IMG/VR virus record: IMGVR_UViG_3300017989_000126
Location: 1 to 60,652 of that record
Length of the DNA: 60,652 bases
Reading direction: 5' to 3' (one strand)
Source of the DNA: a virus
Shown here: piece after piece, positions 12,536 to 46,988 of the stretch
How positions within the stretch are numbered: position 1 is the stretch's first letter
Layout of the letters: every line of letters starts with the position of its first letter
Translations under genes and position numbers: made by a program
Notes under the pieces: model-generated
The model's database searches: none
What the model was told of the DNA's origin: nothing
Seen by the model: the letters and a program-made list of their open reading frames with translations, nothing else

Positions 12536-12570
12536 GAGAGTACCAACTGGGCAAGGCATTGCTTGGTTGC

Positions 12571-12654
12571 AGGATGAATACACGTGGAAGTTACAGTCTT
12601 CTGAATGGACTGGGTCTTAGCGGACCATGCAGGGTTCAAATCCCTGCCATCCGA
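12571..12654 (+). tRNA. Degenerate tRNA-like gene, type II (possibly tRNA-Ser, anticodon TGA)
   Basis: A perfect T-arm is present (CAGGG, loop TTCAAAT, CCCTG at 12630-12646). A long-variable-arm stem (GGTC 12613-12616 with GACC 12623-12626) precedes it. An anticodon stem (12595-12599 with 12607-12611, one U-G pair) encloses a 7-base loop reading TGA at 34-36. The acceptor pairs only five of seven (12571-12577 with 12647-12653), position 33 is C instead of T, and the D-arm is unclear. CCA is not encoded, so a CCA-adding enzyme would be needed. It could be a decayed tRNA or another structured RNA ending at the terminator that follows. Confidence 0.4.
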
Positions 12655-12665
12655 AATCTCCTTTA

Positions 12666-37075: not shown

Positions 37076-39424
37076 ATGGCTATACTTAGAGGATTTCCTC
37101 CATCGAACACAATTTCGCCTAGCGTTCGAATCACCGAAAAAGATTTGTCCTTTATTGCACCAGAACAATCCTTCCATCGTGCAGGTATTGTTGGGTTTGC
37201 ATCCAAGGGACCAATCAACGTGCCAACCCAGATTTCCACGCACAGACAACTCAACACGGTATTTGGCTACCCGCATCCTGAAAGCGGTGACCCGTACCTC
37301 ATTTACGCTGCTGAGCAATACCTGCTTGTTGCAAATGAACTGTGGGTTGTTCGTGTTGGAGACGAGGAAAACGTTAGTGACGAACAAGCTCGAAAAGCAG
37401 AAGTAGAACTTCCTGCTGCTGGTGGCCAGATTCTTATTGAATCTGATACTGCTGGGCCATACACATTTGCGGAAGACTCTTTCTTCCGCTGGAGACTCAA
37501 TGGAGTCTTGCAAGAAAAGGTTTTGGTTGTGCTTGCTGGAACATACACAACAGCACAAACAGTCGAAGACCTCAACCTTCAGCTTGAATCAGATATTGAC
37601 GGCATTGAATTCTATGTCGCAACAGATGACAAAATCGCTGTACGAACCACATTCTCGTTTGGCCCAGATGCTGAACTGGAACTCGTTTCTGTTCAGGACG
37701 CCATCTATGGTGGTGCTGTTGTTGATGGAAACGTAACTGGTTTGGGAACAGGCATGACACAAGCCAGCATTACTGGCTCTAAATCACAATATCCAGCAAG
37801 TTATCAAACTGCTGGTGAATATGACTTCGCTGGTCTTACTGACCAGAACATTCAAATCGTCATTGACGGCACAGACAATGTGTTGATCGACAATGTTATT
37901 CAGGTCATCGACCTTGAAGACCTTGAAGGTGGCGAATACACGATTGCTGAAGTCGTTTCAGAAATCAATAGTCAGAAGACAGTAAACGGTGGCTCTTTGC
38001 CGGGTGGCTGGACTGCTTCTGCAACAGGAGACAACCTCACATTTACAACCGATCACCATGGACGAGATGCAAGATTGCTTATCAAGTCTGACAGTACTGC
38101 TGATGGTGTTTTCGGATTTGAAAATGTGACCGTCACAGGAACAAGCCCGCTGGGAACTTCTGGTGACGCTGCTGTTCATACTTATGGACGAGCCAACGGT
38201 GATGCAGGAGACGGAGAACTTACTCTGACAATTACTGCTGACACTGCTGGTATCGATGGTAACGACACACAAGTTGTTGTCACCAACAACATTCGTGAAG
38301 GTAACTTTGAAATCGATGTTTATAACAACGGTGTTCAAGTTGAAGCATGGGGACAGTTAACCAAAGATGAAACAAGTCGTTTCTATGTTGAAACGTTCTT
38401 GGCTTTGGTTTCTGACTGGATTCGTGGCGTCGATGTCACATCTAACCCTGCTCCTCCACTGGATGGAACTTACCGATTAGCAGGTGGTTCAGACGGTATC
38501 CCATCAGACCCTGATGAACAAGATGCATTAATCTTGGGTAATCAGCTTGGATTTACTGGACTGTACGCTTTGTCAGAACCAGAACAGATCGACATCGACC
38601 TGATCTGTGTTCCGGGGCACACCTCAACATCAGTTGTTACAGCCTTGTTAGACTTCGCACAAAACCTGCGAGCTGATTGTTTAGCTGTTATCGATCCACC
38701 ATTTGGTTTGACAGTTAACGAAATTATTGCATGGCAAAACGGTGTTCACCCGCTCAACACTACTCGCTTTGACAGCGACTTTGGTGCTCTCTACTGGCCT
38801 TGGGTCAAGATCAGAGACAACTTCAACCGTGTTGATATTTGGGCTCCACCATCTGGTTCTATCTTGGCGGTTATCGCTCGATCTGATCAGTTGGCAGCAC
38901 CGTGGTTCGCACCTGCTGGTCTTAACCGAGGAACAGTTCCGGGTATTTCGGACGTATTCTCTCGACCAACCCTGCAAGAGCGAGACCTGATGTACGGATA
39001 CAGAAATGCCATTAACCCAATTGTTCAGTTTGTGGACTTTGAAGGGTTTGTGGTTTGGGGTCAGAAGACCCTGCAAAGGCGTCCTACGGCTCTCGACAGA
39101 GTCAATGTAAGGCGGCTCTTGTTCTATCTTGAGAAGAGAATTAGAGCAGCTTCTCGTGCTCTGCTCTTTGATCCACACGATGAAGAACTAAGGGCTCAGT
39201 TTGTTCGATTGGCAACAGCTATTCTTACAGAGGTCCAAGTTGGTCGTGGTCTGACAGACTTCAGAGTCAAATGTGACGATGAGTTGAACCCACCAGACGT
39301 TATCGACCGAAATGAAATGCGAGCTAGAATTGGCGTCCAGCCAACACGTGCGGTTGAGTTTATCTTCATTGAATTCTCGATTCACAGAACTGGAAGCTTT
39401 GCAGAGAACGCTGACACGTTCTAA
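37076..39424 (+). CDS. Contractile tail sheath protein (gp18-like)
   Basis: 782 residues. The N-terminal sheath domain starts with 'SPSVRITEKDLSFIAPEQSF..AGIVGFASKGPINVP' and 'YAAEQYLLVANELWVVRV'. A large Thr/Asp/Gly-rich insertion (about 125-430) probably forms surface domains. The conserved C-terminal region has 'ALYWPWVKI', 'APPSGSILAVIARSD', 'APAGLNRG', 'NAINPIVQFVDFEGFVVWGQKTLQ', 'DRVNVRRLLFYLEKRI' and an 'RAVEFIFIEFSIHRTG' strand. These are the hallmarks of sheath proteins, which polymerise around the tail tube and contract at infection. A terminator follows. Confidence 0.97.
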   Translation: MAILRGFPPSNTISPSVRITEKDLSFIAPEQSFHRAGIVGFASKGPINVPTQISTHRQLNTVFGYPHPESGDPYLIYAAEQYLLVANELWVVRVGDEENVSDEQARKAEVELPAAGGQILIESDTAGPYTFAEDSFFRWRLNGVLQEKVLVVLAGTYTTAQTVEDLNLQLESDIDGIEFYVATDDKIAVRTTFSFGPDAELELVSVQDAIYGGAVVDGNVTGLGTGMTQASITGSKSQYPASYQTAGEYDFAGLTDQNIQIVIDGTDNVLIDNVIQVIDLEDLEGGEYTIAEVVSEINSQKTVNGGSLPGGWTASATGDNLTFTTDHHGRDARLLIKSDSTADGVFGFENVTVTGTSPLGTSGDAAVHTYGRANGDAGDGELTLTITADTAGIDGNDTQVVVTNNIREGNFEIDVYNNGVQVEAWGQLTKDETSRFYVETFLALVSDWIRGVDVTSNPAPPLDGTYRLAGGSDGIPSDPDEQDALILGNQLGFTGLYALSEPEQIDIDLICVPGHTSTSVVTALLDFAQNLRADCLAVIDPPFGLTVNEIIAWQNGVHPLNTTRFDSDFGALYWPWVKIRDNFNRVDIWAPPSGSILAVIARSDQLAAPWFAPAGLNRGTVPGISDVFSRPTLQERDLMYGYRNAINPIVQFVDFEGFVVWGQKTLQRRPTALDRVNVRRLLFYLEKRIRAASRALLFDPHDEELRAQFVRLATAILTEVQVGRGLTDFRVKCDDELNPPDVIDRNEMRARIGVQPTRAVEFIFIEFSIHRTGSFAENADTF

Positions 39425-39488: not shown

Positions 39489-40037
39489 ATGGCTGATATG
39501 GGAATAGGCAGGCTAGGTGCCCCCACAACCATCATGAAAAGAAAGTTCCGATGGAAATTCCAAATACAAACACCACTTGGGTTCGTTCCTGAATGGTGGT
39601 GTAAAATTGGATCACGTCCACAATTGGACATAGATGAAACAGAAGTCAACTTCCTTAACCAAGCAACTTGGTTCCCCGGAAAGGCTAGATGGCAACCCCT
39701 TTCGATCACTTACATAGACAACAATGAATCGGGCGATGCGGGTCTACAAGGTTTGTGGAACCTCATTGCTTCTGTTTACAACTTTCAAACAAACGAATTA
39801 GGTCAGACAGAAAAATTAGGATGGAATAGCACTGGCATTCTAACAATGTACGATGGATGCGGTGGGCTCATGGAAACATGGCAATTAGGATCTTTATGGC
39901 CTCAGTCAATTAACTGGGGTGATTTAGATTACGCAGTGTCTGAAGAAGCAACAATAGACGTGACTTTTAGATATTCTGAGGTCCGACACTTCTCTTCTTG
40001 CGGACCAACACCATTTGGAATATGTCAAGGGTGTTAA
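39489..40037 (+). CDS. Tail tube protein, paralog 1
   Basis: 182 residues. It shares the tube-protein pattern of its three neighbours: 'KRKFRWKF', 'RPQLDIDETEVNFLNQATWFPGKA.W', 'ITYID', 'LTMYDGCGGLMETW' and 'WGDLDY..SEEATIDVTFRYSEV'. Such gp19-like proteins stack as hexameric rings inside the sheath. It ends with Cys residues (SCGPTPFGICQGC) that could form disulfides. GAGG lies before the ATG. It is the most diverged of the first three and may serve at a tube end. Confidence 0.9.
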   Translation: MADMGIGRLGAPTTIMKRKFRWKFQIQTPLGFVPEWWCKIGSRPQLDIDETEVNFLNQATWFPGKARWQPLSITYIDNNESGDAGLQGLWNLIASVYNFQTNELGQTEKLGWNSTGILTMYDGCGGLMETWQLGSLWPQSINWGDLDYAVSEEATIDVTFRYSEVRHFSSCGPTPFGICQGC

Positions 40038-40081: not shown

Positions 40082-40687
40082 ATGGCTAACAAACCTATGG
40101 GAATCGGCATTATCGGCCAGCCGGATATCGTCTTTAAAAGACAATTCCGTTGGACTTTTGAAATCCAAGGTTTTTGTAACAACGAAAAAAACGTAGTTCC
40201 AGAACACTTTGTGATGACGACAGGCCGTCCAAACCTCAGTATTGAGGAAACACAAATCGACCACTTGAACGCCAGAACATGGATTCCGGGTAAAGCTCAG
40301 TGGGAAACTATCACAGTAACATATATCGATGTGGCACATGACCAAATGCGAATGCTTTGGAACTGGCTTGCAACAACCCATGATTTCACTGATCCAGTAA
40401 ATCTTACCATGGGTAATAAGCGAGACTGGCATGCAGTCGGTGTTCTGAACATGTACGATGGTTGCGGTGTTCTTCTGGAAACTTGGGAAATGAGAAACAT
40501 GTGGCCAACCGCCGTAAACTTCGGCGAGCTTGACTACTCAAGTTCTGAATACGCAACAATTGAATTAACGCTTCGTTACTCAGATGTGGCTTACAGATCA
40601 CTGTGTCCAGAATTCACTCCAGAAGCTTGCTGCTCTGGTTGTGGTACTGGTACGACTGTTACCCAGCCAAGTGTCGATTTTGTTTAA
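40082..40687 (+). CDS. Tail tube protein, paralog 2
   Basis: 201 residues: 'FKRQFRWTFEIQGF', 'RPNLSIEETQIDHLNARTWIPGKAQWE', 'NMYDGCGVLLETWEM' and 'FGELDYSSSEYATIELTLRYSDV'. The C-terminus carries CPEF..EACCSGCG. It has an AGGAG site and a CATAAATAG box about 30 bases upstream, close to the T4 late consensus. It shares most with paralog 3; these two are the best candidates for the main tube subunit. Confidence 0.92.
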   Translation: MANKPMGIGIIGQPDIVFKRQFRWTFEIQGFCNNEKNVVPEHFVMTTGRPNLSIEETQIDHLNARTWIPGKAQWETITVTYIDVAHDQMRMLWNWLATTHDFTDPVNLTMGNKRDWHAVGVLNMYDGCGVLLETWEMRNMWPTAVNFGELDYSSSEYATIELTLRYSDVAYRSLCPEFTPEACCSGCGTGTTVTQPSVDFV

Positions 40688-40718: not shown

Positions 40719-41345
40719 ATGGCTATACCTATGGGTATTGGCAATTTGGGTTTCGAAAACAATGTGTTCAAACGGAAATTCCGTTACACCGTTGAGTTGC
40801 AAAATATTTGTGGCGGTCAACAGGTTCCAAAACATTATGTGAAAATGGCTGACCGCCCAAATATTTCAATTGAACCAACTGAGATCAATTTCCTCAACGC
40901 TAAAAGCTGGATTCCGGGCAAAGCATCATGGGAAACCATTACTTTGACTTACTATGATGTTGCCAACACATATGAATTGAAACCACTATATGACTGGTTA
41001 GCATCAGTCTACAATTTTGCTGATCCTCGTGGTATTTTTGGAGGTTTACAACAAGGCTCTCAAAAGAATGATTATGCAGCAACTGCTATCATATCTCTTT
41101 GGGATGGTTGTGGAGAAGAATTAGAAAGATGGACAATTAGAGATGCTTGGCCAGAAGCAGTGAATTTTGATTCCCTCGATTACAGTGATTCCGAAGCAGT
41201 CACTATCGAATTGACACTGCGTTACTCCGATGTATTTTACCAACACATGTGTCCAAATTACATTCCTCAAAACTGCTGTTCGCCTTGTGGTGGCATAGGA
41301 GGGGGTTTGACTTTAATAAACGTTGAAAGAACTCCGCTTCGTTAA
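40719..41345 (+). CDS. Tail tube protein, paralog 3
   Basis: 208 residues: 'FKRKFRYTVELQNI', 'RPNISIEPTEINFLNAKSWIPGKASWE', 'SLWDGCGEELERWTI' and 'FDSLDYSDSEAVTIELTLRYSDV'. The Cys-rich end (CPNYIPQNCCSPCGG) parallels paralog 2, followed by a short extra tail. It has an AAGGAG site. A terminator separates it from paralog 4. Confidence 0.92.
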   Translation: MAIPMGIGNLGFENNVFKRKFRYTVELQNICGGQQVPKHYVKMADRPNISIEPTEINFLNAKSWIPGKASWETITLTYYDVANTYELKPLYDWLASVYNFADPRGIFGGLQQGSQKNDYAATAIISLWDGCGEELERWTIRDAWPEAVNFDSLDYSDSEAVTIELTLRYSDVFYQHMCPNYIPQNCCSPCGGIGGGLTLINVERTPLR

Positions 41346-41400: not shown

Positions 41401-41416
41401 ATCTATGGAGGCTCAA

Positions 41417-41938
41417 ATGGGTCGTAGAATGAGCATTGACTTTGGCGATAAGTTGTGCAAAAGAAAACATCGTTGGCTATTTCAGCTTACCAGCAATAAT
41501 GGCGAAGTAATTGGAGATGGATCGCTTAACACATTACCTCCACTTAAAACATCCCGACCAACTTTAGTTTTCAAAGAAATGTCAGCACAACATCTTAACG
41601 AAGAGGTGTTTTACCCGGCAAAGCCTGACTGGAAGCCAATTCAAATCACATTATACGACATTAAAACAAATGGAAACCACCCTGTATTCGAATGGCTGAA
41701 AAGCCTTTATGATCCAGAAGATCAAGCAAAGTGGTCAGCTCCTGTTGACAGTGGTTTCATTAGACCAAATGCAACTTTGACTTTATTTGATGGTTGCGGT
41801 GAAGTTGTGGAAAGATGGGTCTACCAAAGTGTCTGGCCTCAGACAGTGGATTTTCAACAACTAGACATGGGCTTAAGCGAATATGTTACATGTGATTTGA
41901 TTTTAAGATACGTCAGAGCTTACATTGAGGAATTTTGA
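41417..41938 (+). CDS. Tail tube protein, paralog 4 (diverged)
   Basis: 173 residues. It keeps 'CKRKHRWLFQL', 'RPTLVFKEMSAQHLNEEVFYPAKPDW', 'ITLYDIK', 'TLFDGCGEVVERWV', 'LDMGLSEYVTCDLILRY' but lacks the Cys-rich tail. ATG 41417 is chosen because GGAGG lies seven bases before it. The divergence and the preceding terminator suggest a minor role such as a tube-tip or terminator ring. It overlaps the convergent gene at 41920 by 19 bases. Confidence 0.85.
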   Translation: MGRRMSIDFGDKLCKRKHRWLFQLTSNNGEVIGDGSLNTLPPLKTSRPTLVFKEMSAQHLNEEVFYPAKPDWKPIQITLYDIKTNGNHPVFEWLKSLYDPEDQAKWSAPVDSGFIRPNATLTLFDGCGEVVERWVYQSVWPQTVDFQQLDMGLSEYVTCDLILRYVRAYIEEF

Positions 41939-45605: not shown

Positions 45606-45672
45606 ACTCTAATATTTCGCACCCTCGGTAGCGAAAAGCCTAATCAACTTAGAATAGTAACAAGGAGCCAAT

Positions 45673-46812
45673 ATGGCCGATGATGTTTACAGACAAACAC
45701 GAAAGAAAGTAGATCCAGATCCACAAGCTGAATCCGAAACAGTTTCACAGCCAAGTATTGATCAATTGCCTGATGATCACCCTCTAAAGGCTGTTCAATC
45801 CGTTCATCAAGCTGCTGCCCAAGAAGTTGGACAAGAAGCCCCTGCTCCTATGCGGCCTATGGCGACCCCAGATGGTGGTTTACAAATTTCAGGCAATGTG
45901 CCCCCACAATTGCGTGCACAAATGCAAGGTGGTTCACAAGGACCACCAAAAATGAACAATCCCAGATCAACTTCAACACCACAGCCCACTCCTGATAGTC
46001 AATTAAGACTTCAGGGAAGCAGCGAATTAGAAAATTTGTTGGGAAGGCTGGCCGAAGAACATTCAAATTGGGAACCTTTGGAACTTCCTTCTAAAGGTCG
46101 ATTTTACGAAAACATCCCTCCTGTTCTTCATATTCGACCTATGACAGGTGAAGAAGAGCAAATCCTTGCCACCCCAAGATGGGTCAAAAAAGGCAAGGCG
46201 ATTGATATGATTTTCGAGAAATGCATTAGAGAAAAAATACCAACAGAAGAGTTACTTTCAGTAGATCGTAACTATCTTTTGATTTTCCTTCGAGGTATAT
46301 CTTATACTCCTGAATACGATGTAGAAGTGAAATGTCCTGAATGTGCTACCAACTTTGCCACAATCATTAACCTTGACGGAATTGAAGTTGAGGAATGTCC
46401 TGACGACTTTGATTCATCTAAACTTGTAGGAACATTGCCAATTACAGGATTTGGTTATCGTTACAAATTAGCAACTGGTGGCGACGAACAGGCAATTACA
46501 GATTATCGTGAACGACGAGTTCAAATGTTTGGCGATCAAACAGAAGATGATACGTTGTTGTTTAGAACAGCTTCTTTGTTGGAATGGGTTGAAGGCGTCA
46601 CAGATCGACGTGAGATTCAAGTTCTTTTGAAGCGTCTTCCAATTGGTGACGTTGCTCATCTTCGAAATGCAGTTAATGATCCTCCTTTTGGCGTAGACAC
46701 TAAAATTCCCATGGTTTGTCCGGCATGTGCAGAAGAATTCAATATTGAATTGCCACTAGAAGCAAGTTTTTTCTTCCCACGGAAGAAGAAGGAAAACCCA
46801 ACCCATCAGTAG
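45673..46812 (+). CDS. T4 gp26/T4_baseplate-family tail assembly protein
   Basis: 379 residues. The N-terminal 120 are Pro/Gln-rich and disordered. The body starts 'LELPSKGRFY' and 'LHIRPMTGEEEQILATPRWV', the signature of the T4_baseplate (gp26-like) family. Two CxxC pairs (CPEC near 222 and CPAC near 350) suggest a zinc site. T4 gp26 is needed for baseplate hub assembly. Near its 3' end (46767-46773) is T TTT TTC, and a -1 frame continues 176 bases past its stop, so a longer fusion is likely to be made by frameshifting. Confidence 0.8.
   Translation: MADDVYRQTRKKVDPDPQAESETVSQPSIDQLPDDHPLKAVQSVHQAAAQEVGQEAPAPMRPMATPDGGLQISGNVPPQLRAQMQGGSQGPPKMNNPRSTSTPQPTPDSQLRLQGSSELENLLGRLAEEHSNWEPLELPSKGRFYENIPPVLHIRPMTGEEEQILATPRWVKKGKAIDMIFEKCIREKIPTEELLSVDRNYLLIFLRGISYTPEYDVEVKCPECATNFATIINLDGIEVEECPDDFDSSKLVGTLPITGFGYRYKLATGGDEQAITDYRERRVQMFGDQTEDDTLLFRTASLLEWVEGVTDRREIQVLLKRLPIGDVAHLRNAVNDPPFGVDTKIPMVCPACAEEFNIELPLEASFFFPRKKKENPTHQ
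46767..46773 (+). promoter_or_regulatory. Candidate -1 ribosomal frameshift heptamer (T TTT TTC)
   Basis: In the zero frame the codons are AGT TTT TTC, so both tRNAs can slip back one base. Zero-frame translation stops 39 bases later. A 7-bp hairpin (46771-46777 with 46781-46787) overlaps the 3' side. The -1 frame is open from upstream of this site to 46988. Confidence 0.6.
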
Positions 46813-46988
46813 AGCTTTGGCAAACGCTGATGGAGGAATTGTTCTTCTTCCAGTATCATATGCATATGAGCAAAAAAGATTGCATGACCTTACCTGTGCA
46901 TGAGCGCAAGTGGTTAATTCAAAGATTTATAGACCAGAAGAAAAAGGAAAATGAAGCCATAGATAAAGCACGTAAGAAAATTAAATAG
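46773..46988 (+). CDS. C-terminal extension made by -1 frameshift, gp51-like tail chaperone part
   Basis: Frame -1 relative to the gp26-like gene: 71 residues including SVELWQTLMEELFFFQYHMH, 'MSKKDCMTLPVHERKWLIQRF' and a charged helix. 'F..YHMHMS...L....(R/K)W.I.R' resembles T4-like hub-assembly proteins such as gp51. An internal ATG 46830 exists but has no ribosome site, and the reading frame joins smoothly to the gp26-like protein at the slippery heptamer. This resembles the gpG/gpGT tail-chaperone arrangement. Coordinates begin at the first shifted codon. Confidence 0.65.
   Translation, partial: LPTEEEGKPNPSVELWQTLMEELFFFQYHMHMSKKDCMTLPVHERKWLIQRFIDQKKKENEAIDKARKKIK

Follow-up and report, generated by a model that had tools for sequence, protein, structure and literature searches.

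A probable T4 gp26-type tail assembly chaperone, very likely made in short and long forms by -1 frameshifting at T_TTT_TTC

Among the described tail assembly chaperones, those of the lambda gpG/gpGT type consist of a short protein and a minor -1 frameshift product with a small C-terminal domain, encoded near the tail-tube genes, the slippery heptamer of lambda being G_GGA_AAG. The domain of the minor product recruits the tail-tube protein while the short form coats the tape measure, as stated in the part of a 2016 review dealing with these chaperones (PMC5009743), in which T4 is still given as the exception. The relevant passage of PMC3004832 presents gp26 and gp51 of T4 as hub assembly chaperones and the function of gp51 as unknown. 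According to papers which credit Vladimirov, Gautam and Davidson (2022), in the passages where that work is cited, some T4-like phages hold the short and the long tail chaperone as a gene pair (PMC10885494), and poly-T -1 signals occur in T4-like phages (PMC12846349); the genes meant are presumably 26 and 51. A further chaperone locus is that of the Vandenendeviridae/Andersonviridae, where the -1 shift of Pseudomonas phage Adele was deduced, in the passage of PMC12846349 concerned with it, from a poly-T motif conserved near the end of the short gene, on its 3' side; this basis for the shift is shared with the locus described here, the motif being GTTTTT in Adele versus T_TTT_TTC in our case. 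The preliminary description of the present DNA knew of no established gp26/gp51 case, which these citing papers make out of date. By their account the T4 short/long pair and the poly-T -1 signals are already in print, therefore the gene presented here is not the first case; it is an addition to a kind that is already known.

The DNA analysed, hereafter the window, has 60,652 bases and is a virus record of IMG/VR. On its + strand an open reading frame of 379 amino acids (45673..46812) follows an AAGGAG upstream of the ATG (45662-45667). The product matches PF12322 (T4_baseplate, the T4 gp26 family; E 2.3e-15, 57.3 bits, above the gathering cut-off of 24.5), residues 138-367 being aligned with profile positions 9-218 of 219, and also PHROG 150 'baseplate hub' (E 8e-19). 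Compared with lambda, not only the heptamer is different: the first protein has 379 residues, CxxC motifs resembling a zinc ribbon, and a long additional stretch at its N-terminus. The slippery heptamer TTTTTTC (46767..46773) is read in the zero frame as (AG)T TTT TTC, that is in the phase T_TTT_TTC, and the zero-frame stop TAG (46810..46812) lies 36 bases past the heptamer, or 39 bases past the first base of its TTC codon, the latter being the distance given in the preliminary description. The same description was also right about the -1 frame, its coordinates and its lengths: this frame is open from behind a TGA at 46746, across the heptamer, up to the TAG ending at 46988, which makes 216 bases counted from 46773 (46773..46988; 71 amino acids and a stop). 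Joining both frames at the heptamer gives a predicted long form of 438 amino acids (45673..46988).

Motifs of the X_XXY_YYZ type are common, 305 being present on the + strand of the whole window, and it had to be considered that the heptamer stands by chance next to a downstream frame that is decayed or unrelated, and that no shift takes place. The window contains 98 ORFs with 90 or more amino acids, many of which are spurious; an in-phase X_XXY_YYZ was found within the last 60 bases in 5 of them and a -1 frame open for at least 150 bases beyond the stop in 26; both features coincide in a single one, the gp26-like gene. Chance is further opposed by the purifying selection on the extension and by the retention of the heptamer throughout the readable loci of two clades, both detailed below, and we regard it as extremely improbable.

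Searching IMG/VR with a profile yielded 229 confirmed relatives, the best 80 of which (53-100% identical to the window protein) were used. Two of these run off the contig, and in all 78 readable loci the same heptamer stands in phase, 28-49 bases ahead of the stop, beyond which the -1 frame stays open for another 173-197 bases; because the loci share ancestry, these counts are not independent trials, although synonymous sites outside the heptamer have diverged among them despite that ancestry. The 78 loci and the window (79 sequences) were thinned to 56 by removing sequences with an identity above 93%. In this set the codon preceding the heptamer's first full codon ends in T in 56/56 cases and is followed by TTT in 56/56 and TTC in 56/56, against a background, in the remainder of the same genes, where TTT makes up 0.47 of the Phe codons and the T-ending share is 0.54 for Asn and 0.42 for Ser. 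The synonymous-identity profile has its maximum at the heptamer, which is covered by the top one of 268 seven-codon windows (ratio 1.81 versus a median of 1.06). Conservation of heptamer and phase in relatives, proposed in the preliminary description as a check, was thus found in 78/78 readable window-clade loci and 79/79 readable loci of the cyanophage type.

The homopolymeric nature of the site also brings in transcriptional slippage on the T run, which would produce mRNAs with an altered U count, then read normally, and could reach the same frame. The run is, however, exactly six T in 79/79 window-clade and 79/79 cyanophage-type sequences, six being short for efficient transcriptional slippage, and the constraint extends to the phase of the codons and to the C after the run, as is required by tandem tRNA slippage; we consider this route very unlikely. 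As to stimulating elements, no conserved downstream RNA structure was found in the window clade (RNAalifold, no pairs predicted; mean z -0.37), a possible hairpin immediately 3' of the window heptamer was rejected as not conserved, and no upstream Shine-Dalgarno is conserved, a GGAG-type motif being present in just 12/56 window-clade loci.

Past the zero-frame stop, differences per site in the window clade amount to 0.35, 0.23 and 0.57 at the first, second and third positions of the -1 frame, variation is greatest at the third position in 1536 of 1540 sequence pairs, and the median NG86 dN/dS is 0.19 (73 pairs with dS between 0 and 2). The extension evolves as a protein in the -1 frame, under purifying selection, and the site, its phase, its conservation and the coding in both frames are shown by these data. 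In the AlphaFold2 model (mean pLDDT 88.7) the extension is predicted to form three helices (11-29, 34-38, 42-70). DUF6760 (PF20546) matches it at 19 bits, below the gathering cut-off of 27 (E 0.0014), and matches 2 of 9 extensions at E <= 0.1; a match to Tma16 of Pfam (E 1e-4, just under the cut-off) was judged to be chance helical similarity.

Such a protein could also be the product of a second gene, translated separately from an internal start (ATG 46830 or later), perhaps by reinitiation after the stop at 46810. The preliminary description had mentioned an only ATG in the -1 frame, which was wrong: four are in frame (46830, 46860, 46866, 46884), and TTG 46839 and GTG 46896 are non-ATG candidates. 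It was correct concerning the ribosome site, since no well-placed one was seen before any of these starts. Separate translation is favoured by the four ATGs, by Synechococcus phage S-SM2, annotated with its own 'baseplate hub assembly catalyst' gene, and by the ATG within the first 12 extension codons in 77/79 cyanophage-type loci, where it stays compatible with the sequence. In the window clade, however, no start codon is conserved upstream of the core as a single shared one among the 56 loci, 20 of them lack any ATG, GTG or TTG ahead of the conserved core and in only 2 is a start in that stretch accompanied by a Shine-Dalgarno-like site; because of the latter two figures separate initiation is unlikely, and it would leave the invariant heptamer and its phase unexplained. 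Altogether we hold two separate genes to be highly improbable, and a real frameshift at T_TTT_TTC to be very likely on the pattern of conservation.

The arrangement was found in other phages with PF12322 proteins as well. A protein search of a phage collection matched 44 records, and 12 loci from them were examined: six carry a T-run heptamer in the correct phase, followed by a -1 extension (LR756511, Agrobacterium Atu_ph07, Stenotrophomonas RAS14, Vibrio 2.275.O, Synechococcus S-SM2 and Klebsiella RaK2), and in the remaining six the longer downstream frame is the +1 frame; one of the 12, from Alishewanella (L014), is without a frameshift site. For the cyanophage type, the best 80 of at least 598 loci were taken, of which one runs off, and TTTTTTC stands exactly 10 bases ahead of the stop in all 79 readable ones. 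The Bacillota-type profile gave 42 loci, 3 running off and 39 readable, with the extension in the +1 frame in 34 and in the -1 frame in 5, and the +1 extension of these relatives (within loci L187-L223) joins at the same protein position as the -1 extensions. The commonest zero-frame site of this group is TTT or TTC, then TTT, then CGN (21/39), for which we propose a +1 slip at UUU_C; variant sites read TTA TTY AAT CCC and TTT YTT TGG CCT. A -2 slip fits the +1 group poorly, because variants read TTC TTT CGN. The +1-site motifs sought were missing in 11 of the 39 readable loci, five of these 11 being the -1 loci, and in L200 and L201 no clear shift site was seen. In a comparison by hhalign the window-clade and +1-group extensions reached a probability of 98.5%, and the two are homologous. 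Searches with gp26 of phage SP-15 gave no match among plasmids and, in a scan of viral contigs, SP-15 itself only.

In T4 the PF12322 family is likewise shared by the chaperones (gp26/gp51; TAC-N/TAC-NC), gp26 corresponding to the short form and gp51 to the short form with the extension. Each of the two is a full PF12322 protein (E 9e-64 and 4e-52, respectively), and gp51 consists of the whole PF12322 domain and a C-terminal extra part; PHROG 634 matches this part as well as the -1 extension of S-SM2 (E 1e-23 and 3e-30). The alignment of T4 gp26 with the cyanophage protein extends as far as residue 240, where the cyanophage short form ends. The preliminary description called the window pair gp26-like and gp51-like: conservation strongly upholds the -1 shift as well as the likeness to gp26, whereas the gp51 likeness is only indirect, running through intermediate families. 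Direct hhalign comparison was not significant either between the window extension and T4 gp51 (P 0.054) or between the window-clade and cyanophage extensions (P 0.099), and the chain leads from the window clade to the +1 group (98.5%), from the latter to the cyanophage extension (83%) and from there to gp51 (72%). T4 gp26 and gp51 look like the short and long forms kept as two genes. In T4 they are separate, divergent genes on opposite strands, the 3' end of gene 26 being without T_TTT_TTC, whereas in the window one gene apparently yields both forms by the shift.

The tail sheath gene of the window (37076..39424, + strand; PHROG 23, E 1e-83) is followed on the same strand by four tandem gp19-like tail-tube genes (39489-40037, 40082-40687, 40719-41345 and 41405-41938; PHROG 4542). 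The gp26-like gene lies downstream of these, with minus-strand genes in between, and no tape-measure gene was recognised adjoining it. Elsewhere in the window, at 12559-12655, ARAGORN reports an odd-looking tRNA-Cys of 97 bases with anticodon ACA. In SP-15, LIS04 and immuto the sheath gene is followed, in this order, by the tube, the gp26-like gene, the extension and the tape measure, and a chaperone role is supported by this position of the gene between tube and tape measure in the three phages. The model of the gp26 domain (mean pLDDT 90.3) found nothing at E <= 0.001 with Foldseek, where YqbN (3klu) appeared at E 4.6. With VIA-align YqbN was the top row (Z 4.5, 91 aligned, rmsd 4.3; next Z 2.9), a weak match, as a Z under 8 may reflect just a common arrangement. 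YqbN is an XkdN-type tail chaperone and a member of the Phage_TAC_5 family, which was matched in B. subtilis alone among 14 control genomes. The fold match may lend weak support to the chaperone reading.

Taking these data together, the gene most probably encodes a tail assembly chaperone comparable in kind to lambda gpG/gpGT and built on a T4 gp26 (PF12322) domain, with a major short form and a minor long form arising by the -1 shift; we infer the occurrence of the shift, its efficiency and the chaperone role. Most ribosomes would end at 46810 and give the 379-residue short form. A minority would slip one base back at T_TTT_TTC, where two Phe-tRNAs could re-pair from UUU UUC to UUU UUU, and, passing the zero-frame stop, would make the 438-residue long form with its small helical C-terminal domain. 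If lambda is taken as the model, the short form would coat the tape-measure protein, and the C-terminal domain of the long form would bring tail-tube subunits to it in a fixed ratio.

DUF6760 was also seen in bacterial genomes, in what may be contractile injection systems. In a Pseudomonadota locus (L229, 1130-1674) a 123-codon open frame lies between two tube-like genes, with an in-phase G_GGA_AAG 19 bases ahead of its stop and the DUF6760 domain in the -1 frame; going by this arrangement, it is possibly a frameshifted chaperone of a contractile injection system. A second locus (L230, reverse strand) has the order tube, short protein, DUF6760, tube, and there DUF6760 seems to start via a stop/start overlap. 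The domain is rare, being above the cut-off in 2 of 299 genomes of the bacterial phylum sampled, and two order searches of 150 genomes each revealed no further genome with it.

These results add a large group of phages, uncultured ones and ones of large size, to those with tail chaperones produced by frameshifting; in this group the second half is annotated as a separate gene or is unannotated. They also offer a simple evolutionary explanation for the helper proteins gp26 and gp51 of T4. It is conceivable, though we place it somewhat below an even chance, that one chaperone family arrives at its short/long pair by three routes at a single protein junction, namely a -1 shift at T_TTT_TTY, a +1 shift mostly at UUU_C in Bacillota-type phages and paralogues in T4, and that such domains may be frameshift-made in cellular contractile injection systems too. 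That relatives use different frames at one and the same junction provides a natural experiment on the maintenance of the ratio of short to long form.
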